A stretch of 64,000 nucleotides of DNA from Syntrophales bacterium (GCA_028712885.1 JAQTPK010000004.1:1-64000), one strand, 5' to 3'. Shown: positions 10,916-36,650, counted from the stretch's first letter. Translations and numbers: made by a program. The notes: generated by a model from the letters alone, not told the origin.

Positions 10916-11695
10916 TTAGAACATGATCGCCGTGAGGAAATAGTCCGCCACCAGGATGGAAATGGATGCCAGGACGACGGCTTCGGTCGTAGCCCTTCCC
11001 ACACCTTCGGCGCCTCCGCGCGTATTGAACCCTTTGTAGCATCCCACGAGGGACAGGATGAGTCCGAAGCAGGCTGCCTTGACAAGTCCGTTGTATATGT
11101 CGTTCAGCGTGACCAGCTTGGTTATATTCTTTAAAAACAGACCTTCGTTGATCTGAAGGACATGCACCCCTACGAAATAACCGCCCGCAATGCCGACGAA
11201 ATCAGAAACGACGGTCAGGATAGGAACCATGGCGATGCCTGCGATAATCCTGGGGACGATCAGGTGCTGGATGGGATTGGCCGCCATGACATAAAGGGCG
11301 TCTATCTGCTCGGTCACGCGCATCGATCCCAACTCGGCGGCCATGGCGGAACCGGCCCGTGCCGTCACCATCAGGGACGTAAGAACCGGCCCCAGCTCCC
11401 TTGTCATTCCAAGGGCGACGGTTGAGCCGACGAGGCTCTCGGCGCTGAACATCCGGAACCCGTGGTAACCCTGAAGAGCCATGACCATGCCGGTAAAGGT
11501 CCCCGTCAGGACGACCACGAAGATCGACTTGACCCCGACGAATTCCATCTGTTTCATTATATTCTTGAATTTCAAGGGGGGGCGGACGGCCCAGGAGAGA
11601 ACGGAAAAAAAGAGGAGCAGGATTTTCCCCGCCTCCTCCACGTTGCGCAGAACGGCCTTGCCCAGATTGTCAATTAAAGAGAGAAAACCCTTCAT
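10916..11695 (-). CDS. mlaE: Mla-type ABC transporter permease
   Basis: A 259-residue inner-membrane permease of the MlaE family with five or so hydrophobic segments. The family core TGTFTGMVMALQGYHGFRM and MTARAGSAMAAELGSMRVTEQIDAL is present, followed by PRIIAGIAMVPILTVVSDF and a C-terminal GRATTEAVVLASISILVADYF. The ATG at 11695 overlaps the ddl stop in an ATGA, so translation is probably coupled to the ligase gene upstream. Only 10 bases separate it from mlaF. Confidence 0.93.
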   Translation of the reverse strand: MKGFLSLIDNLGKAVLRNVEEAGKILLLFFSVLSWAVRPPLKFKNIMKQMEFVGVKSIFVVVLTGTFTGMVMALQGYHGFRMFSAESLVGSTVALGMTRELGPVLTSLMVTARAGSAMAAELGSMRVTEQIDALYVMAANPIQHLIVPRIIAGIAMVPILTVVSDFVGIAGGYFVGVHVLQINEGLFLKNITKLVTLNDIYNGLVKAACFGLILSLVGCYKGFNTRGGAEGVGRATTEAVVLASISILVADYFLTAIMF

Positions 11696-12756
11696 AGGGG
11701 ACCTTTTTTGCGGGCATGCGCCTCCAGGGAAAATCTCAATACCTTGCCGATCAGATCCGCCTGGCTTATTCCTGAAGCTGCCGCCTGATGAAAAAGGACC
11801 GTGGAAGGAGTCATTCCGGGAAGCGAATTGGGCTCGAGGACGGCAACCCTCCCGTCTTCCCGGACGAACATGTCTATTCGAGAATAGACTTTCAGCCCGA
11901 GCGCGATGAACGCCTTGACCGCCACGTCCTGAATCTCTTTCAGCTTCTCCTCCGGGAGGCGCGCCGGGGTTTTGTTTTCCCCCTGGCCGTAGAGGAATTT
12001 ATCTTCCAGCGACAGGATTTCCGTTGTGGGGATGGTCTCCGAGGGGGTGAGCGCCTGCGGCCTTTCGTTCCCGAGAACGCCGCAGGTAACCTCCATTCCC
12101 GTCAGGAATTCTTCCACCAGCACCGTGTTGTCCCACTCGAACGCGCTGCCGAGCGCGTCCGGAATTCCTTCCAGGGACACGACTTTCTTAACCGCCGTGC
12201 TGCACCCTTCCCGCGTCGGTTTGACCACGCACGGGAAGCCTATCCTGTTTCTGATGCTTTCCAGGATCCCGTTTCTCTCCTCGGATGTCCATTCCTCTTT
12301 CGACACGGCCACCGTCGCCGGCACGTCTATGCCGCTCAGGGCCAGGACTTTTCGCGACGCGAGCTTGTCCATCCCGAGCGCGGAGCCGAGAACTCCCGAC
12401 CCGGTATAGGGAACGCCCAGCAATTCCAGCAGCCCCTGCAGGCACCCGTCTTCTCCGTATTTGCCGTGCAGGCCGATGCAGACCAGGTCGACCCGGTCCT
12501 TGATTTCCTCATACCGGATCCTTTTTGCCTCTTCGGCGAGATCCGTTTCAACGTCGACCGTGCTGTTCCTCATCAGCAGCTTTATCGGTATTTCCCAGAG
12601 GGAGCAGCGGCTGTCCATGAAGATCGGGATCGGCTCGTATTCATTCCGATTCATCTTGGAAAACAGATTTCGTCCGCTCTCCAGCGAAACCTCCCTTTCG
12701 GAGGAAACGCCGCCCATGATAATTCCGATCCTCAGCTTTTTACTTTCTTCGGTCAT
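11692..12756 (-). CDS. ddl: D-Ala-D-X ligase paralogue with S150C and Y216F triad changes
   Basis: A 354-residue ATP-grasp ligase that joins D-alanine to D-alanine (or another D-hydroxy or amino acid) for peptidoglycan. EREVSLESG (E15 equivalent), GMDKLASR (K97), the R of the RID motif and the metal residues of LEPNSLPGMTPST are intact. Aligned on E. coli DdlB, the E15-S150-Y216 triad is altered: REGCS has Cys where DdlB has S150, and EDKFLYG has Phe where DdlB has Y216. Phe at this position is known from Leuconostoc D-Ala-D-Lac ligase and from other F-type Ddl. Start set at MTEESKK (ATG 12756). It heads the mlaE-mlaF-mlaD operon through an ATGA overlap, which ties a wall ligase to lipid transport. 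A Tyr-type paralogue lies at 13817. Confidence 0.85.
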   Translation of the reverse strand: MTEESKKLRIGIIMGGVSSEREVSLESGRNLFSKMNRNEYEPIPIFMDSRCSLWEIPIKLLMRNSTVDVETDLAEEAKRIRYEEIKDRVDLVCIGLHGKYGEDGCLQGLLELLGVPYTGSGVLGSALGMDKLASRKVLALSGIDVPATVAVSKEEWTSEERNGILESIRNRIGFPCVVKPTREGCSTAVKKVVSLEGIPDALGSAFEWDNTVLVEEFLTGMEVTCGVLGNERPQALTPSETIPTTEILSLEDKFLYGQGENKTPARLPEEKLKEIQDVAVKAFIALGLKVYSRIDMFVREDGRVAVLEPNSLPGMTPSTVLFHQAAASGISQADLIGKVLRFSLEAHARKKGPL

Positions 12757-12795
12757 GCTCCCTGATCGGTCTCCCTCTTTTAAATATGCCTTCGC

Positions 12796-12870
12796 CAGTC
12801 GTAAAGTGTAAGGCGTGAGGCGTTGCAAAAAGTTTACACCTTACACCTTACGATTCACACTTTACGTTTA
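12796..12870. repeat. Paired heptad arms (GTAAGGC class)
   Basis: A left arm (GTAAAGT, GTAAGGC, GTGAGGC) and a right arm (TTACACC, TTACACC, TTACGAT, TCACACT, TTACGTT) of complementary sequence face each other across about 15 bases. Class A. The right arm runs to the stop codon of the barrel gene. Confidence 0.7.
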
Positions 12871-13816: not shown

Positions 13817-14872
13817 TCAGAGCGGCCCGAGCTTTTCCCTGTGCACCCGCAAGGCGATTTCGATGAGGCGCGACAGCACCATGGACGGCAGCATCCCATT
13901 TTCCGCCGCCTGCTCAAAGAAGAAGGAGGACGGGGCCATTCCGGACGAGGAATTCGGATCGGTGATCAGAACCCGGCCGTCCTTCAGGACAAATCCGTCT
14001 ATCCGGCCGTAGCACCGGAAGCCGAGCGCCCGAAAAGCGCGCACGACATCCTTCTTGATCACATTGATAAGGTCTGCGGGAATATTCTTCGGCGGGGTGA
14101 ATTTCCGGCATCTTCCCGGCATATATTTATCATTGTACGTGAAAAAATCGCTCTGGGGATGGATCTCGGTAAGGCTGAGCGGAACCGGGCCGTTCTCTTC
14201 ATCAAGGACGATTGACGAAAATTCGATTCCGTCCAGGAATTCCTCGGCCAGAGCCGCATTATCCCAGCGGAGCGCCTCTTCGACGGCAGCGCCTGTCTCG
14301 CCGCGTTCCCTGATAATCGCCACTCCGATGCTGGAACCCTCCCGTGGAGGTTTGATGACGAAAGGATAACCGAACTTTTCTTCAAAATCCCGCTCGACTT
14401 CCTCCCTTCGCTCGGCCCACATTTCTTCAGTTACAAGCATGCTCCGGGGAACGCCGAGGCCTTCAGCCTGGAGAATTTTCTGCTGGATATGCTTGTCCAT
14501 GCCCAATGCCGAGGCAAGGACTCCGGGGCCGGTGAAGGGCAAGCCGAGCAATTCCAGCAATCCCTGTATGCACCCGTCGTCACCGTACTTTCCGTGGAGC
14601 GCGATGAAGGCGAAATCGATCAGATCCTTCAAATCCTCATAAGCCACGTGCTTCGCTTCTTTTTCGAGACGCTCCGAAATGTCCACCGTCGTGTTCTGGG
14701 ACACGAGCTGCCAGGGGATAAGCCACAGCCGGCCTGCGTTGTCCATGAAGAGGGGCACGGGGGCGTACGCCTCCCGGTCCAGATTGTCGTACACATTCCG
14801 TCCGCTGTTGAGCGACACCTCTCTTTCCGAAGACATCCCGCCGAATATTACTCCGACCCTTAATTTTTCCAT
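13817..14872 (-). CDS. ddl: D-Ala-D-Ala ligase paralogue with E270D substitution
   Basis: A 351-residue ATP-grasp ligase clearly paralogous to the product of 11692-12756; they share NTTVD, LHGKYGDDGC-type and SALGMDK blocks. Here the DdlB triad is intact: EREVSLNSG (E15), REGSS (S150), NDKYMPG (Y216). The metal-binding end is changed: LITDPNSSSGMAPSS has Asp in place of E270 and lacks the usual LPGMT. So each paralogue keeps what the other has lost. It may be a functional D-Ala-D-Ala ligase with altered metal binding, a ligase for a different substrate, or a degenerating copy. Start at MEKLRVGV (ATG 14872); the longer frame begins inside repeat sequence. Confidence 0.8.
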   Translation of the reverse strand: MEKLRVGVIFGGMSSEREVSLNSGRNVYDNLDREAYAPVPLFMDNAGRLWLIPWQLVSQNTTVDISERLEKEAKHVAYEDLKDLIDFAFIALHGKYGDDGCIQGLLELLGLPFTGPGVLASALGMDKHIQQKILQAEGLGVPRSMLVTEEMWAERREEVERDFEEKFGYPFVIKPPREGSSIGVAIIRERGETGAAVEEALRWDNAALAEEFLDGIEFSSIVLDEENGPVPLSLTEIHPQSDFFTYNDKYMPGRCRKFTPPKNIPADLINVIKKDVVRAFRALGFRCYGRIDGFVLKDGRVLITDPNSSSGMAPSSFFFEQAAENGMLPSMVLSRLIEIALRVHREKLGPL

Positions 14873-14910
14873 GCTGCTCAATCCATGATTTACTTTATTT
14901 CTTTTGAATC

Positions 14911-15056
14911 CCAAATTACAAATTCCAAATCACAAACAATACACAATTTAAAAAAATTCGAAATTTCAAAAAACTTTTCAATCTATTCTCTTCGGTGTTT
15001 TGACATTTGAATTTTGGATTTGTTTGGGATTTGGTGCTTGGGATTTGGCATTTGTT
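14911..15056. repeat. Paired heptad arms (CCAAAT / ATTTGG class)
   Basis: The left arm has units CCCAAAT, TACAAAT, TCCAAAT, CACAAAC; the right arm (15005-15056) has TTTGGAT, GGATTTG, GGATTTG, GCATTTG. The arms are complementary in kind and separated by an AT-rich stretch of about 60 bases. Class D. They fill the gap between alr and ddl. Confidence 0.7.
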
Positions 15057-15078: not shown

Positions 15079-17034
15079 TCACAAGTCCCAGATAAACGTT
15101 GTTCCCGAGTTCGGAAACACCCATTCGTCGTCTTTCATCTTCAGCACTATGGACCTGTTTTTATCCCGTACGACTTCCGGATTGGGGCATTTGCCGGAAA
15201 AGAAACTCACTTCCCGGACATTTTTCAATCCGGCATCGCCGTAATCGAAAGATATCTCCAGTCCCCTGGTGGGATAGACGATAAATACCGAGAAAATATT
15301 GCTGTTCCTGGGCTTGCGGGTCACGATCTCCAGTTCCACCTTCACGGGGCGGTCGACCTTGCCTTGGAGTACGCTGCCCCCGCACCAGACTTCGTACCCG
15401 CGCGCCGTCTGTTCCGCGCGGATGATCGGCACGGAATCGCCGTCCACCCGGACGGCCTCAATTTTGAAATCCCTTTCCCGGAAAGGATCTTCCGTCCGCC
15501 CGAGAAGCCACCTGTATTCGCAGAATTCCTCGCGGAAAAGGGCGGCCAGCTGCTCATTGTTCATGGCGCAGCCGATGAGAAAGAAGCTGCTGCGCAGAAC
15601 CTTCGTGTATTCCACGCGCGTCTTTATCCTGAAGGACCCCTCCACCGTGGGATCTTCTTTTATCTCCCCTTTTGAAAACTCCTGGACGCGGATGTCGTAC
15701 TTGAACCTGGTCCTCAGCTCGAGCCTTCGGTCTTCTTTCCCGAACAGCGTCTCGAACATTTCATAATAGATGGCGTTCCCGAGCTCCTCGTCGTTGGCCC
15801 TCGCCTGGAAACACCTGCGGATGATATTGTCGATCCGGGCGATCGATTTTTCCTCATCCGGAATGAAGACCCTGCGCAGGCGCGGCTCTACCGTGTCGGC
15901 GCGTCCCTTGTCCAGAAAAACCCTCGGCGCCCTTTTCCCGAGGGCGCACAGGACTTCGTAGCTGATCGTCCCCGCCCTTCCGGCAATCTCGTTCGCGGAA
16001 ATATATTCCGCGCCCTGTCTGCCGAGCAGAACCACTTCGTCCCCGACCCCGCATTCCGGTATATGCGTGACGTCGATCGTGCACATGTCCATGGAGACCC
16101 GTCCCACCACCGGCGCCCTCCGGCCGCGAATCAGGGCTTCTCCCCTGTTCGACAGGATAACGCCGAACCCGTCCCCGTAACCCACGGGGATGGTGGCGAT
16201 CCTTGTCGGACAGGAAGTGATAAAAGTTCTGTTGTAGCCGATGCCGTAATCCTTCGGGAATTCTTTCACGAGAACTACGCTCGTTTTGAAGCTCATCACC
16301 GGCAGAATGTCTATGCCCGGAGAAGGGCTCTTAGCGGGAAAAATTCCGTACGTCATGATCCCCGGCCTTACCAGGTCGAAATGGCAGTGCGGGTAATTCA
16401 TGACGCCGCCGCTGTTCGACATATGCTTGATCGGGATTTCTATTCCCGCCTCATGCAATTCATCCAGTGTGCGGTTGAACCTTTCCCACTGGATGCGGTT
16501 GTGATCGTCGTCCGCGACTTCGCTGGAGGAGAAATGGGTGAAAATTCCCCTGAGTATAAGGTGCGGGAGCTCCGCAATCCGGCGAATTGTCTGCAGCGCT
16601 TCGGAATAGATCAATCCCCCCCTGCCCATTCCCGTGTCCACCTCGATGTGGACGGGCATGCGGATTTCGGCCGCACGCAGCTCCTTGTCGTACTCGCGCG
16701 CGAAGGTAAGATCCGATATGGACGGGATGAGGTTATGTTTGATTATCTCGCGGATCTCCGAAACCGTAGCCGGGCTGAGGATCACGACGGGGGCATCTAT
16801 TCCTCCCGCGCGAAGCTGCACGCCCTCGTCGGCATTTGCCACTCCGAGGCAGGAGGCCCCGCACTGGAGGGCTATGCGCGAAATCTCGATCGCGCCGTGC
16901 CCGTACGCATCCGCCTTTACTGCGGGCATTATCGCGACGCGCGGTCCGATCAGCCGCCTGATCTCGCTCCAATTATGCCGGTAGTGATTCAGGTCGACTT
17001 CAACCCAACTGCGGTATTTGTGATCATCGGCCAT
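15079..17034 (-). CDS. alr: Alanine racemase with extra C-terminal domain
   Basis: A 651-residue protein. Residues 1-375 are a complete fold-type III alanine racemase making D-alanine for the wall: PLP lysine K40 in AVKADAYGHG, VDTGMGRGG, the catalytic tyrosine Y266 in GIGYNRTF, and RVSMDMCTIDV. Ordinary Alr ends near LGKRAPRVFL (about residue 373). About 275 further residues follow with no linker to another known enzyme. This part is a mix of helices and a long beta-rich section (IFSVFIVYPTRGLEISF, then WVFPNSGTTFIWDL at the very end), and I do not recognise it. Start at MADDHKYRSW with AGGTG 4 bases ahead. It lies next to two Ddl paralogues, so D-Ala production and ligation are clustered. 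Confidence 0.88.
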   Translation of the reverse strand: MADDHKYRSWVEVDLNHYRHNWSEIRRLIGPRVAIMPAVKADAYGHGAIEISRIALQCGASCLGVANADEGVQLRAGGIDAPVVILSPATVSEIREIIKHNLIPSISDLTFAREYDKELRAAEIRMPVHIEVDTGMGRGGLIYSEALQTIRRIAELPHLILRGIFTHFSSSEVADDDHNRIQWERFNRTLDELHEAGIEIPIKHMSNSGGVMNYPHCHFDLVRPGIMTYGIFPAKSPSPGIDILPVMSFKTSVVLVKEFPKDYGIGYNRTFITSCPTRIATIPVGYGDGFGVILSNRGEALIRGRRAPVVGRVSMDMCTIDVTHIPECGVGDEVVLLGRQGAEYISANEIAGRAGTISYEVLCALGKRAPRVFLDKGRADTVEPRLRRVFIPDEEKSIARIDNIIRRCFQARANDEELGNAIYYEMFETLFGKEDRRLELRTRFKYDIRVQEFSKGEIKEDPTVEGSFRIKTRVEYTKVLRSSFFLIGCAMNNEQLAALFREEFCEYRWLLGRTEDPFRERDFKIEAVRVDGDSVPIIRAEQTARGYEVWCGGSVLQGKVDRPVKVELEIVTRKPRNSNIFSVFIVYPTRGLEISFDYGDAGLKNVREVSFFSGKCPNPEVVRDKNRSIVLKMKDDEWVFPNSGTTFIWDL

Positions 17035-17078
17035 AAAACACCTATCGGGTAGCGTTTCCCGCATTTCTCGCTTCGCCT

Positions 17079-17116
17079 GCATTACCCATCACCCATTACC
17101 CATGACCCGGAACCTG
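17079..17116. repeat. Heptad border repeat (CATTACC class)
   Basis: Units CATTACC, CATCACC, CATTACC, CATGACC in exact 7-bp register between the cyclase stop and alr start. Class G. The complementary version (GGGTAAC, GGGTAAT) occurs at 30262. Confidence 0.65.
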
Positions 17117-32021: not shown

Positions 32022-32050
32022 TTGACAAAGACCGATTTGATCACTAATTT
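32022..32050 (+). promoter_or_regulatory. Sigma70 promoter of the flavodiiron gene
   Basis: Perfect TTGACA (32022-32027), a 17-base spacer, TAATTT (32045-32050). The predicted start near 32057 lies only about 20 bases ahead of the ATG at 32076, which supports that ATG over the longer frame beginning at 32022. Confidence 0.75.
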
Positions 32051-32075
32051 TGTGGAAAAAAGGAAGCGGACGCTC

Positions 32076-33260
32076 ATGGAAATCGCAAAAGGAGTTTACT
32101 GGGTCGGAGTGGTTGATTGGGGCCTGAGGCATTTCCACGGCCATGAACTTTCAACCCACCGCGGATCGACTTACAATGCTTACCTGATCATAGATGAAAA
32201 GATCGTCCTCGTGGACACGGTCTGGAACCCTTTTCAGGACCAGCTCCTCCGGAACATCTCCGCCGTCATAGATCCTTCGAAAATCGATCTGGTCGTAGCG
32301 AATCATTCCGAGTCCGATCATTCCGGGTCGCTCCCGGCGGTTATGCGCCGCATACCGAACGCGACCGTTGTTGTTTCGAAGAGGGGCGAGGAAAGCGTAG
32401 AGGGGCATTACCACCAGGCGTGGAACTTCAAGTCCGTGAAAACGGGAGACCGGATTTCAATCGGAGAGAACGAGCTGGTTTTCATCGAGGCCCCCATGCT
32501 CCATTGGCCGGACAGCATGTTCACATATCTTGCCGGGCGCAACATTCTCATGCCGAACGACGCATTCGGTCAGCATTACGCAACCTCTTTCCGCTTCAAT
32601 GATCAGGTCCACCGGGAGGAGCTGTACGAAGAGGCGATAAAGTATTATGCAAACATCCTGACTCCCTTCAGCGCGCTCGTCCTCAAGAAGATCGACGAGG
32701 TCCTCGCGCTCGGCCTGCCTGTCGACATGATCGCCCCGAGCCATGGGGTGATCTGGCGCCGCGATCCGCTCCAGATCGTGACGAAATACCGGGAGTGGGC
32801 TTCACAGGTCCCGGAAAAGAGCGCTGTTGTGGCATACGATACCATGTGGGAGGGGACGCGCCGGATGGCGGAAGCGGTGGGAAACGGCATGGCGGCGGAG
32901 GGCATCCCCTGCAAAATCTTCCACATGGCGGTTTCGGACCGCAATGACGTCATCACGGAAATCTTCAAGTCCCGGGCGGTGGTGATAGGCTCGCCGACGC
33001 TGAACCAGGGCCTTCTCCCCACGATTGCCCCGATTCTGGAAGACATTCGCGGTCTCCGCTTTCAAAACAAGATCGGCGCCGCGTTCGGCACCTACGGATG
33101 GAGCGGCGAATCAGTGAAGCTGATCGAGGAGCACCTGACCCGCTGCAAAATCCCGGTCGTATGCCCCGGGGTCCGGGCGAAGTGGCAGCCGAAACCGGCC
33201 GATCTGGAAAATTGCGAGAAAATGGGCAGGGAAATTGCGGCGGCCGTAAAATCGACGTAA
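32076..33260 (+). CDS. Flavodiiron protein (rubredoxin:oxygen/NO oxidoreductase type)
   Basis: A 394-residue soluble protein reducing O2 or NO, protecting an anaerobe. The beta-lactamase-like domain (1-250) has the diiron ligands HxExDH in NHSESDHSGS, a further H in EAPMLHWPDSM, an aspartate in LMPNDAFGQHY, and a histidine in MIAPSHGVIW. The flavodoxin domain (about 250-390) binds FMN through AYDTMWEGTRRMAEAV and GSPTLNQGLLPTIAPI. No rubredoxin extension is present. It is a single-gene unit with its own promoter. Downstream lie heptad repeats and a structured intergenic region. Confidence 0.93.
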   Translation: MEIAKGVYWVGVVDWGLRHFHGHELSTHRGSTYNAYLIIDEKIVLVDTVWNPFQDQLLRNISAVIDPSKIDLVVANHSESDHSGSLPAVMRRIPNATVVVSKRGEESVEGHYHQAWNFKSVKTGDRISIGENELVFIEAPMLHWPDSMFTYLAGRNILMPNDAFGQHYATSFRFNDQVHREELYEEAIKYYANILTPFSALVLKKIDEVLALGLPVDMIAPSHGVIWRRDPLQIVTKYREWASQVPEKSAVVAYDTMWEGTRRMAEAVGNGMAAEGIPCKIFHMAVSDRNDVITEIFKSRAVVIGSPTLNQGLLPTIAPILEDIRGLRFQNKIGAAFGTYGWSGESVKLIEEHLTRCKIPVVCPGVRAKWQPKPADLENCEKMGREIAAAVKST

Positions 33261-33437
33261 GGCGTAAGGAGTGAGGCGTGAGGTGTGAAACGTAAAGCCA
33301 GATCTTTGCCGGGCTCATCACAAAAGACCGGAAAATTTAACAGAATAAGAGAAGAAGATATAGGAGAGAATGTAAAAAAGTGAAGCATAGGAAGTGCGTT
33401 TTCTTTAACACCTTACGATTCACTCCTTACGCCTCAC
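33257..33437. repeat. Paired heptad arms (GTAAGGC / GCCTTAC class), long spacer
   Basis: Left arm at 33257-33297: GTAAGGC, GTAAGGA, GTGAGGC, GTGAGGT, GTGAAAC, GTAAAGC, an uninterrupted 7-bp register. Right arm at about 33406-33437: CTTACGA, TTCACTC, CTTACGC, CTCACGA. About 105 bases of unique sequence separate the arms. Class A. Confidence 0.75.
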
Positions 33438-33479
33438 GAGAACCGATATTATTCACGGACTGACGTGACCCGCTTTCCT

Positions 33480-33634
33480 CAGTTGATATCCGCGGCTGCG
33501 GACGGAAGCGGCATATTGCAGCGGTACCGACCGCGGCAAAAAAACCGACTTTAATGCTTAGACGGACCGTGCAGGCGGTCCATGTCCGAAAACTTTCTTA
33601 AGGGGCAGATATCATGTATCTGCTCCTTTTTTTT
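33480..33634 (+). ncRNA. Candidate small RNA with four hairpins and a terminator
   Basis: No ORF is seen here. Hairpins: TCCGC/GCGGA (33489-33502), GCGGT/ACCGC (33521-33534) and GGACCG/CGGTCC (33564-33581). They are followed by a strong intrinsic terminator, GGGGCAGATA (33602-33611) with TATCTGCTCC (33617-33626) and eight T. The flavodiiron gene ends over 300 bases upstream, so this is either its distant terminator preceded by palindromes, or an independent RNA. I found no clear promoter in 33438-33480. Confidence 0.5.
33602..33634 (+). terminator. Intrinsic terminator
   Basis: A 10-bp stem (one G-U pair), loop TCATG, then a run of eight T at 33627-33634. It isolates the amidoligase locus from everything upstream. 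Confidence 0.9.
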
Positions 33635-33782
33635 CCGGCCTTTTCCCCCCGCATCTATCCTGATTGATGAATGCCTTCCGCCGACCGCGGGTGCATTCGA
33701 TTTTCAGCTTTGGACTTCCGGACAGCTGCGTCCGGGGAACGATCGGACCGGAATCGCCCGGATCGCCTTCGGGGTCATCCAG

Positions 33783-33808
33783 AAAGGAGGTATATGCAAG
33801 TCGCGTGA
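33783..33808 (+). other. Very strong ribosome site with four-codon frame
   Basis: AAAGGAGGT (33783-33791 region) is followed at 33794 by ATG CAA GTC GCG TGA. The frame is in register with the ORF at 33854-34084, so readthrough of this TGA would add 20 residues to it. It may be a minimal regulatory uORF, the remains of an original start, or a Sec codon. No convincing SECIS hairpin follows the TGA, so Sec is unlikely. Confidence 0.4.
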
Positions 33809-33853
33809 AGCGCAGGAATTTTGAACCCTAATTGGAAGAGAAAGGGAAAGAAC

Positions 33854-34084
33854 ATGAAAGAGCTGACACTTTTTGAAAAGCGGAAATTCGCAGCGGATAC
33901 GGACGGGAACGGAAGCCGCGAGGTATCCAGAATATCCTCCATCCGGGTCGCCGTGGAAATGGGAAATCCTTTCGCGAACAACTCGGGGAAGGAGGAGGGC
34001 AGGAACAGGCGCGGGGAAAGCGTTTTCAGGTTCGTGCTGAACAGACAGCGCGAGCTGCGGATTCGGACCGAGCGCCGTCAATAA
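33854..34084 (+). CDS. Small basic ORF upstream of the amidoligase, unknown
   Basis: A 76-residue protein starting MKELTLFEKRKFAADTDG and ending RELRIRTERRQ. It is rich in Arg, Glu, Ser and Asn, with no Cys, no signal peptide and no recognised family. AAAGGGAAAG lies about 4 bases ahead of the ATG. The sequence between the terminator at 33634 and this start holds two further GC-rich hairpins (CCGGAC/GTCCGG near 33718). Its place directly ahead of an amidoligase makes it a candidate peptide substrate or partner, which is speculation from context. Confidence 0.5.
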   Translation: MKELTLFEKRKFAADTDGNGSREVSRISSIRVAVEMGNPFANNSGKEEGRNRRGESVFRFVLNRQRELRIRTERRQ

Positions 34085-34122
34085 ACCGGAAGAAGACGAC
34101 CGGCTCCATCGGAGGTGAAGTA

Positions 34123-34146
34123 ACCGCCTGATCTTTTTCAGGCGGT
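34123..34146 (+). promoter_or_regulatory. Perfect hairpin in the amidoligase leader
   Basis: ACCGCCTGA (34123-34131) and TCAGGCGGT (34138-34146) form a perfect 9-bp stem with loop TCTTTT. No T run follows, so it is not an intrinsic terminator by itself. It lies 40 bases after the small ORF. Confidence 0.6.
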
Positions 34147-34175
34147 CTCCGCTTCAGAGTCGGGATACCGCATTC

Positions 34176-34250
34176 AACCGGCTTCGGCCGGGTTACCCAG
34201 AAATGGGCATGAACCCGGCCGGGGAAGCTTTCCCTCTTGCCGGGTTTTTT
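34176..34250 (+). promoter_or_regulatory. Transcription attenuator (four-segment) before the amidoligase
   Basis: Segment 1 AACCGGC (34176-34182) pairs with segment 2 GCCGGGTT (34187-34194) through a TTCG loop. Segment 3 AACCCGGC (34212-34219) pairs with segment 4 GCCGGGTT (34239-34246), which is followed by TTTT, making a terminator. Segments 2 and 4 are identical 8-mers, so segment 3 can pair with segment 2 (9 bp with the next base) instead and prevent termination. This is the standard 1-2/3-4 versus 2-3 attenuator layout. The amidoligase ATG is 22 bases downstream. Confidence 0.7.
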
Positions 34251-34271
34251 GCCCGGAAGAGGAGAAAGGAA

Positions 34272-35987
34272 ATGAAGAAAAAATTTTCGCGAAGATATGC
34301 CGACGGCCCCCGGGACCCGGAAATAACCCGCGTGGAAGCGGCCAGGGTCCATGACAATCTGCTTACAGAATGGATTATTACCAGCAACAACATAGACGGC
34401 GCCCTCAACTGCGGCTGCGCCGATTTTGAAACTCAGAGCGATTCCCGGGAATGTCTCCCCTTCGGGAACTGCCGGCATATCCGTTCGGCAGATTTCTCCG
34501 TTCTGAAAAAAGCGGCGTATTCTTTCAAAAAATGGTCCGAAAGAAACGCAGGTACAGCCGGCCCGTCGCCGCGCCTTGCGTCCCTCCTGCGACCGCTGGA
34601 CACAAGGATTCATGAAAGGCTCAGCGCAACCCAGGCCCGCCTCATCCTCGCCGATGCGCTGGCCCGGCAGGGAATCTCCCCTGGAGAGTACGGAAAGATC
34701 CTGGACCGCTGCGGAACAGTTTCGCTGGTCCCCCGTACGGTTTTCGGAGTTGAACTCGAATGCTTCATCAATAACCTGAACGGCGGCCGGGAAGGCCTGG
34801 TCGAAGAAGCAGCATCGCTCGGCCTGGAAATAGCCGGGCGGCCGGAGGAAATCCCGGCGCGAAGGGTCTGGGTGATCAAGAGGGATTCCAGCGTGCACGG
34901 ACACGCCAATCCGTATTATTCGCCGATCGAGATCGCCAGTCCGCCCCTTTACGGGGCCTGCGGGTTTCGCCGGATCGAGACCGTCATTGCCGCGTTCAGG
35001 AAAATCGGCGGCGGCGTGAACGGCTCGTGCGGATATCACGTCCATGTAAACGCCGAAGGCATTCCCGCGGACTCCCTCGTCCGCCTGATGCTGGCATGGC
35101 GGATCGTGGAACGGCGCTTTCTCTGGGGCATTGTCCCGCCGGGAAGGCGCGAACTCGAGTACAGAAACAAAGAGGGTCGCATGCGGACGGGCGGGTACTT
35201 CTGCAAGGAAGTAACGCGGGAAATGATCCGCAAATGCATGCAGGAAGGCCCCTGGTCTTTCGAGGACTATGAAAGGCATTACAGCCTGAACTATGCGGCT
35301 CTGCGCAGACATGGGACGGTGGAAGTAAGGCTCGCAGCGGGGACCCTCAATACCGACAGGATCCGCAACTGGGCCCTGCTCGTCCTGAAGCTTACTGATA
35401 CGGTCTGGAGGATGCGGCTCGGCCCGGAAGAATTCGCCCGCTGCCGCTCAATTGAGGATTTCCTCGCCTGCATCGGGACGGCCGGACCGGAGTGCCCCTC
35501 CGTACTGGCGAAAGCAGGCGATTGGGCGATGGAAAGGTTCCGGAAAATCTGGCAATGGGAAAGGCATCCGGAATATCTGGAAGCGATGAAGGCGGACGGC
35601 TGCAAGGCGGCGTCCGCGGGAGGGGGAGGACGCGCGCAGGCGGTCCGCGATTACCTGGACAGCTTCACCCGCCCCCTCACGATATACGATCCCTGCCTCG
35701 ATGCCAACAGCATTCACAATCTCTGCGCCCGGTCCGGACGCTTCAGGCCGGACCCGGAAGATATCCTGGGGGGAATCGTATCGCGCCAGTGGCGTTTCGG
35801 GCCAAGAACGGGCGCCTTCATCCAGGCCCTGGACCAGTCGGGAGAGATCCTGACCTGCAGCTGCAGCGCCTTCCGCAGAAGCAGAGGCAGATACTGCGCT
35901 CACGTCAGACCGATCGCGAGAATGCTGCTCCTTCTCAGGCGCTGGGAACAGGCGTATCCTGATCGGCAGATTGCCGAAGCAGGCTGA
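34272..35987 (+). CDS. Amidoligase-domain protein flanked by two SWIM zinc fingers
   Basis: A 571-residue protein with three parts. Residues 46-70 form a SWIM-type zinc finger (C47, C49, C67, H69; NCGCAD to GNCRHI). About 155-400 match the amidoligase family (glutamine synthetase/glutamate-cysteine ligase fold, PF12224-like): FGVELECFI (158-166), SPIEIASPPL (217-226), GYHVHVNAEG (254-263) and TVEVRLAAGTLNTDRI (349-364). Residues 528-545 form a second SWIM finger (C529, C531, C542, H544; TCSCSA to YCAHVR). Amidoligases form ATP-dependent peptide or isopeptide amides; SWIM fingers bind DNA or protein. I know of no described protein with this order. Start at ATG 34272 with GGAGAAAGG ahead. It is cytoplasmic, with a terminator directly after the stop. 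Confidence 0.8.
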   Translation: MKKKFSRRYADGPRDPEITRVEAARVHDNLLTEWIITSNNIDGALNCGCADFETQSDSRECLPFGNCRHIRSADFSVLKKAAYSFKKWSERNAGTAGPSPRLASLLRPLDTRIHERLSATQARLILADALARQGISPGEYGKILDRCGTVSLVPRTVFGVELECFINNLNGGREGLVEEAASLGLEIAGRPEEIPARRVWVIKRDSSVHGHANPYYSPIEIASPPLYGACGFRRIETVIAAFRKIGGGVNGSCGYHVHVNAEGIPADSLVRLMLAWRIVERRFLWGIVPPGRRELEYRNKEGRMRTGGYFCKEVTREMIRKCMQEGPWSFEDYERHYSLNYAALRRHGTVEVRLAAGTLNTDRIRNWALLVLKLTDTVWRMRLGPEEFARCRSIEDFLACIGTAGPECPSVLAKAGDWAMERFRKIWQWERHPEYLEAMKADGCKAASAGGGGRAQAVRDYLDSFTRPLTIYDPCLDANSIHNLCARSGRFRPDPEDILGGIVSRQWRFGPRTGAFIQALDQSGEILTCSCSAFRRSRGRYCAHVRPIARMLLLLRRWEQAYPDRQIAEAG

Positions 35988-35994
35988 ACTGAAA

Positions 35995-36031
35995 GGCATC
36001 GGGAAAGAAAGGCATCCCGGTGCCTTTTTTT
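35995..36031 (+). terminator. Intrinsic terminator of the amidoligase gene
   Basis: GGCATCGGG and CCCGGTGCC (one G-U pair) enclose a purine-rich loop, followed by seven T. It closes the amidoligase unit. Confidence 0.88.
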
Positions 36032-36076: not shown

Positions 36077-36166
36077 GACAAGTAAAAAGTGAAAGGTGAA
36101 AAGTAAAAAGGCTTAATGAAGCAATAAGCCGTTTGTGATCTTTTCACTTTTAACCTCTCACTTTTT
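36077..36166. repeat. Paired heptad arms (AAAAGTG / CACTTTT class)
   Basis: Left arm: AGTAAAA, AGTGAAA, GGTGAAA, AGTAAAA. Right arm from about 36138: TTTTCAC, TTTTAAC, CTCTCAC, TTTTTAT. The two are complementary in kind, with about 30 bases between. Class B. Confidence 0.7.
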
Positions 36167-36182
36167 ATCGGATTGATTAAAA

Positions 36183-36650
36183 ATGCTGCATCGATCTTCG
36201 AGCTTACTCTTCAGGATTCTCCTTGGTTTTCTGCTGGCCTGTTTCCTGTGTTCATGCTCTCTCCTGCCCGTAAAGAAAACTCCCCGAAAAGAGGTCCGGA
36301 AAATGCTGGTCACGGCTTACGACGCCGGGCAGAAATCTACCGGTTGGAAGTATAAATACGGGTGCTGCTTATTTCCGCCGGTTTATGCGTACGGACCTAA
36401 CGAGGGAAAACCGAAAAAGGTGGGCATAACGTCCGACGGCACCAAGGCGAAAAAGGGCACGATCGCCGCCGATATCTCCCGCTATCCGTATGGGACCCGC
36501 ATGTATGTGCCGGGATACGGGTGGGGCGTTGTTCACGACACAGGCAGCGCCATAAAAGGCGACCACATCGACGTCTTTTTCCCGAGCCACAGGGACGCCA
36601 TGGCGTGGGGGAGAAAATACCTGGACGTCATTGTCGAGAGAAAAAGATAG
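36183..36650 (+). CDS. 3D-domain lipoprotein
   Basis: A 155-residue exported protein. A lipobox near LACFLCSC (residues 19-26) follows a hydrophobic signal, predicting a lipoprotein. The C-terminal half is a 3D (DDD) domain, named for three conserved aspartates: GTIAADISRYPYGTRMYVPG, then GVVHDTGSAIKGDHIDVFFP and AWGRKYLDVI. Such domains occur in cell-wall-active proteins (MltA-like and YocH-like). It probably acts on peptidoglycan or its remodelling in the periplasm (inference). Starts at ATG 36183, after a paired-arm repeat; the ribosome site is weak. Confidence 0.8.
   Translation: MLHRSSSLLFRILLGFLLACFLCSCSLLPVKKTPRKEVRKMLVTAYDAGQKSTGWKYKYGCCLFPPVYAYGPNEGKPKKVGITSDGTKAKKGTIAADISRYPYGTRMYVPGYGWGVVHDTGSAIKGDHIDVFFPSHRDAMAWGRKYLDVIVERKR

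Follow-up and report, generated by a model that had tools for sequence, protein, structure and literature searches.

The window analysed here is a 64,000-nucleotide stretch of contig C63 from the genome of a Syntrophales bacterium (2.93 Mb, 97 contigs). We focused on the locus at positions 33,480 to 36,031. Its features are as follows.

33600..33636, plus strand: terminator-like hairpin with U tract (-17.8 kcal/mol), ending an upstream candidate RNA stretch
33854..34084, plus strand: 76-residue basic ORF, pI 11.3, called from codon use; its membership in the ligase system is unsupported
34178..34250, plus strand: attenuator-like leader with inverted repeats and two exclusive hairpins, from folding
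34272..35987 (stop included), plus strand: SWIM-amidoligase-SWIM protein of 571 aa, from ORF, Pfam, alignment, codon use and model
34410..34478, plus strand: N-terminal SWIM-type finger, C47xC49..C67xH69 (residues 47-69), ligands invariant in homologues
34737..35393, plus strand: Amidoligase_2 domain (residues 156-374) with glutamine-synthetase (GS)/YbdK-like fold, from Pfam, invariant residues and model
35856..35903, plus strand: C-terminal SWIM-type finger, C529xC531..C542xH544 (residues 529-544), from a sub-cut-off Pfam match and homologues
35995..36031, plus strand: terminator-like hairpin (35995-36024; arms GGCATCGGG and CCCGGTGCC, then T7) after the ligase stop codon, read from the sequence

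Upstream of the locus is a flavodiiron-type gene (32022-33260). Downstream of the ligase is a small lipoprotein-like 3D-type gene (36183-36650). Both names come from reading the sequence. The candidate RNA stretch (33480-33640) has a fold z-score of -3.8. For the leader (34085-34258), the predicted fold is more stable than those of shuffled sequences (z-score -4.9). Here, a hairpin at 34185-34221 (-25.6 kcal/mol) excludes a terminator-like hairpin at 34212-34250 (-21.5 kcal/mol), with which it shares bases. The repeats are built on the near-palindromic CCGGCCGG, which by itself makes alternative pairings likely. Our hypothesis is that the exclusive hairpins may act as a transcription attenuator. 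The hairpin that follows the ligase was missed by the terminator scan because its loop of 12 nt is longer than the scanner limit of 8. A first-pass annotation had called the mutually exclusive pair, a strong terminator for the candidate RNA and terminators on both sides of the locus; each is present as a sequence feature. The 832 bases upstream of the ligase had no relative in 60 related genomes, only chance matches of 23-28 bases. Rfam returned no family at gathering score upstream of the ligase (only tRNA reaches threshold) and sub-threshold matches at 33261-34271 were chance-like.

Several other elements were seen in the window. A very strong Shine-Dalgarno-like sequence, AAAGGAGGT (33784-33831), lies just upstream of the 76-residue ORF. 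Only mini-ORFs follow it, MQVA from 33794 and VKRRNFEP from 33805, which suggests a possible leader peptide. Antisense ORFs of 125 and 428 residues were ruled out as genes, their codon use being non-coding. Imperfect inverted repeats flank the locus on both sides (33256-33438 and 36077-36167), with arms that are 86-89% complementary, for example CGTAAGGCGTAAGGAGTGAGG and TAAAAAGTGAAAGGTGAAAAG. Similar stretches seem to recur near 37.3 kb, and the repeats look like a dispersed intergenic family. As read from the sequence, a 667-aa frame (15079-17082) starts with an alanine-racemase-type segment (VEVDLNHYRHNW) and adjoins two genes resembling D-Ala-D-Ala ligases (11692-12828 and 13817-14914).

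The first-pass annotation had proposed a 571-residue protein with an amidoligase domain. The ORF and Pfam agree on this point. PF12224 matches with 70.5 bits (cut-off 22, E 2.7e-19) over model positions 3-244 of 245, and the protein is the sole PF12224 match in the host genome. Thirteen residues are invariant across 19 amidoligases of different groups. In the alignment, the window ligase has 13 of 13: G159, E161, E163, W200, D205, E220, C253, G254, H256, H258, N340, E351 and R353. The catalytic motifs GxExE, E, HxH, N and ExR are all retained. Because every invariant residue is in place, the enzyme looks intact.

The predicted structure was consistent with this assignment. The AlphaFold model has a mean pLDDT of 70, with the core mostly at 75-95 and the N-terminal finger at about 44. 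Its best PDB match is the carboxylate-amine ligase YbdK (E 2.6e-5); type III glutamine synthetase (9.6e-4), the Pup ligase PafA and the depupylase Dop are also among the matches. TM-scores were modest (0.2-0.4), as expected when the matched domain sits inside a longer, partly low-confidence model. Profile, alignment and structure prediction together bear out the amidoligase fold and its catalytic motifs; the N-terminal finger region of the model has low confidence. A PDB sequence search gave no significant match, TIGR02050 matched weakly and a defence-system library had no match for the locus. The window protein should be an ATP-dependent ligase of the carboxylate-amine type, predicted from sequence and model to join an acid and an amine.

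The window ligase thus shares with Amidoligase_2 (PF12224) the full-length domain, the invariant residues and the GS/YbdK-like fold. It differs in having flanks of about 150-200 residues on either side of the domain, each with a SWIM-type finger. A complete SWIM finger at each end had been claimed on first pass. The CxC..CxH motifs and their conserved ligands stand, but a PF04434 match above cut-off in the window protein was not obtained. The C-terminal finger scored 13 bits, short of the 19.6 required, and the N-terminal finger was not recovered by PF04434. Other evidence speaks for the fingers. A CxC..CxH motif on both domain flanks arose in none of 20,000 shuffles of the protein. When the window ligase is aligned with four full-length relatives (~32-34% identity to it), none of the eight metal ligands varies, and those of the C-terminal finger are invariant in six proteins. 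Among relatives, the C-terminal finger of the Nitrospirae ligase (L032) exceeds the cut-off at 21.3 bits. A stand-alone protein equivalent to the N-terminal part (L027) reaches 19.3 bits, just short of it. Hence, the window motifs have the CxC..CxH spacing of the SWIM family while falling below the profile cut-off themselves. The profile alone would be insufficient; we accept two SWIM-type fingers because of the shuffles, the ligand invariance and the scores in relatives.

Inspection of some 30 further amidoligases from bacteria, phages and viruses revealed no SWIM-type motif, and scans of phages and viral contigs returned only amidoligases lacking fingers. Among amidoligases examined, finger-bearing flanks are confined to the window ligase and a small group of relatives. 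Hence, the role of the fingers is without precedent in the family. Amidoligase_2 is said to belong to the class of GS-like amidoligases treated by Iyer et al. 2009. That survey lay outside our literature search, which found no report joining an amidoligase with a SWIM finger, so priority is unverified. Three published co-occurrences of the two terms were judged incidental from titles and counts. The SWIM-amidoligase would appear, on sequence grounds, to be a rare form of a known kind of enzyme with no earlier report found.

Full-length relatives are rare. One was found in a complete genome of the order (3,179,300 bp), which we presume to be Syntrophus aciditrophicus and call Syntrophus-like; the others are in Syntrophaceae bacterium UBA6078 (two copies) and Nitrospirae bacterium GWB2_47_37. 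A profile search of 155 genomes of the order found no further finger-bearing ligase, and one of three genomes examined from the host's family has such a protein. Scores for PF12224 in relatives were 146.7, 113.4 and 53.1 bits. The relatives carry an extra N-terminal zinc ribbon, which the window ligase lacks. Among 395 genomes of the phylum, the genome G395 encodes a 477-residue ligase with the C-terminal finger only. Just upstream of this gene (L027), the N-terminal zinc-ribbon and SWIM part is a separate gene of 93 aa. This indicates that the N-terminal finger is a fused module. For the three Syntrophales element copies, dN/dS is 0.02-0.04 in the ligase domain and 0.07-0.19 in the finger regions. 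We conclude that both parts are under purifying selection in the element copies.

The genes around the relatives are of conjugation type. In the Syntrophus-like genome, UBA6078, the Nitrospirae genome and the split version in G395, the ligase adjoins coupling and conjugation genes. The set shared upstream of the ligase (L022/L028, Syntrophus-like; L032; L027) comprises an SLT transglycosylase, not seen in L027, a 250-residue protein, a TraG/TraD-type coupling ATPase, an HD-domain protein, small membrane proteins and 234-residue membrane proteins. The coupling ATPases are 47-65% identical between elements. Upstream of the Syntrophus-like copy (L028) are TraH and TraG_N genes of an F-type conjugation apparatus. 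In every relative, a class II glutamine amidotransferase is encoded immediately downstream of the ligase (L022, L023, L024, L032 and L027), and its Cys2, HxR..T and HNG motifs are present in L022, L032 and L027. A GNAT acetyltransferase follows the amidotransferase in the Syntrophales and Nitrospirae copies (L022, L023 and L032). Hence, the relatives have a conserved gene set that resembles an amide-forming modification module.

Further genes were noted near these elements. The split module (L027:7081-12848, on contig C3 of G395) has the order 93-aa Zn-ribbon/SWIM gene, one-finger amidoligase (C-terminal SWIM), class II amidotransferase; a PD-(D/E)XK nuclease, a coupling ATPase and an HD gene are nearby. 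In each of the three Syntrophales element copies, the ligase is immediately preceded by a DUF6908 protein and an unassigned protein of 116-122 aa (L003:121-525, L022:9076-9426), which are possible further module members. As read from the sequence, two gene pairs resembling AbiE-type (AbiEi/AbiEii) genes lie near the Syntrophus-like element (L028:17048-18791 and L029:13508-15279). A P4-type integrase, also read from the sequence, sits beside an smpB-like gene (L029:15573-17938) and may mark one element end.

The window copy has different surroundings. No class II amidotransferase or GNAT lies beside the ligase, and no conjugation genes are linked to it in the stretch of C63 examined. A host-genome search with the Syntrophus-like amidotransferase, sensitive to near relatives only, found just a PurF-like frame on contig C42. 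Since none of the relatives' partner genes adjoin it, the window ligase is an orphan. Conjugation-type genes are present on other contigs of the host. C43 has a coupling ATPase, a shortened HD gene and membrane proteins amid housekeeping genes, and C53 has TraH/TraG_N-type genes. In the host genome (G000), the C43 interval at 18.6-24.8 kb includes SSB and SLT genes together with the coupling ATPase and shortened HD gene, and the C53 interval at 9.1-15.0 kb has TraG_N, TraH and TraF-like genes, again among housekeeping genes. The genes on the two contigs look as if they belong to a dispersed element. It is plausible that the window ligase derives from a conjugative element. An empty-site comparison among family members yielded no definable empty site, because the downstream 3D-type gene has a different context in those genomes.

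The interpretation that we favour, and consider rather probable, is that the window protein is an Amidoligase_2 carboxylate-amine ligase tethered by SWIM-type fingers, and that its relatives form an accessory module of F-type conjugative elements. The chemistry that we infer is as follows. The core would use ATP to activate a carboxylate and then join this to an amine, either ammonia or another. Anchoring of the enzyme to a macromolecule or partner would fall to the two SWIM-type fingers, accompanied in relatives by the N-terminal zinc ribbon. In relatives, the amine would be ammonia from glutamine, released by the dedicated amidotransferase, and the GNAT enzyme may contribute an additional acylation step. 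The set of ligase, amidotransferase and GNAT would travel with the conjugative elements. The window copy would be a chromosomal orphan, apparently still functional to judge by its sequence, with a transcript of its own or one shared with the small ORF upstream. Presumably, it must rely for its amine on free ammonia or on an amidotransferase encoded at an unlinked locus. What it partners with and acts on may not be the same as in the element versions, because it is only ~32% identical to them and has no zinc ribbon.

Enzymes with a GS-type fold that modify proteins have a precedent in PafA and Dop, which ranked 5-8 in the PDB structure comparison with weak scores, so that membership is not claimed. 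The locus has no Pup-like substrate or proteasome genes nearby.

A serious rival is that the ligase acts on a peptide carboxylate of the cell surface, in the envelope or in a peptidoglycan peptide, amidating or otherwise altering it, and so excludes competing elements or phages. Two phage studies read cassettes of amidoligase and glutamine amidotransferase in this way, proposing that they modify the host envelope against superinfection (PMC5498523; PMC10580990). What makes the rival serious is Arthrobacter phage Ottawa, where ligase and amidotransferase (genes 65-66) have the same order as in the element-borne relatives; LUZ24-like phages have such cassettes too. A lytic transglycosylase is also found in the same elements. 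However, those studies offer envelope modification as a hypothesis. The phage ligases inspected have no fingers, whereas the relatives sit in conjugative elements with a GNAT; the window copy, unlike the phage cassettes, has no amidotransferase. Nor does an ATP-grasp or gamma-glutamyl cyclotransferase adjoin it, as in those cassettes. In addition, the protein looks cytosolic and its fingers are of a nucleic-acid or protein type. We therefore rate envelope modification as unlikely.

Synthesis of a small molecule or peptide by a free-standing ligase of YbdK/GCS-like type, with fingers that are merely structural, is more doubtful still. YbdK is the closest solved fold, TIGR02050 gives its weak match and the window has no partner gene. 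However, the finger ligands are conserved and the fingers are under selection across distant copies, and in L027 one finger has a gene of its own. Both observations argue for a specific targeting role.

We also considered the 76-residue ORF as a peptide substrate or partner of the ligase. It lies on the same strand, 187 bases upstream, with no gene between. Its codon-use score of 0.099 narrowly exceeds the highest value, 0.094, among 61 non-coding control ORFs. Hence, it may well be a gene. However, a terminator-like hairpin separates it from the ligase. Searches of 155 genomes of the order, of phages and of viral contigs turned up no relative of the ORF, and it resembles neither the 116-residue protein preceding the ligase in the Syntrophus-like element nor other small proteins upstream of homologous ligases. 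The first-pass annotation was right that a basic ORF of unknown family exists here, and it looks coding; conservation beside amidoligases was not found. Its further suggestion, that small ORF and amidoligase together form a conjugation or peptide-modification system, fails with this neighbourhood, which is conserved nowhere in the genomes, phages and viral contigs searched. In relatives, the conserved partner is instead the class II amidotransferase. We consider a role for the ORF as substrate or partner very improbable.

Least probable of all is that the ligase is a decaying remnant of a conjugative element without present function: partner genes are missing, other conjugation genes are scattered, the HD gene on C43 is shortened and the ligase is rare in the family, but the full-length frame, every catalytic and metal-ligand residue and coding-like codons are retained. 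Conservation of fingers and active site makes both small-molecule synthesis and decay less likely than a tethered ligase.

The tethered ligase of conjugative elements can be taken one step further, tentatively, as a finger-guided amidation or conjugation system. Zinc ribbon and SWIM fingers might bring the GS-fold ligase to a protein or nucleoprotein target, such as the transfer apparatus or a host factor; the amidotransferase would supply ammonia and the GNAT a second mark. The window ligase might then have been kept alone in the chromosome under its own attenuator.

Pairs of amidoligase and amidotransferase recur in phages, and the literature searched names no established substrate for them. 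Our data indicate that such modules ride conjugative elements too, not phages alone. Since the fingers are built in, the gene set is compact and both fused and split versions exist in nature, pull-down offers a direct route to the target. Should the fingers select the substrate, experiments could reach the target of this class of amidoligase.
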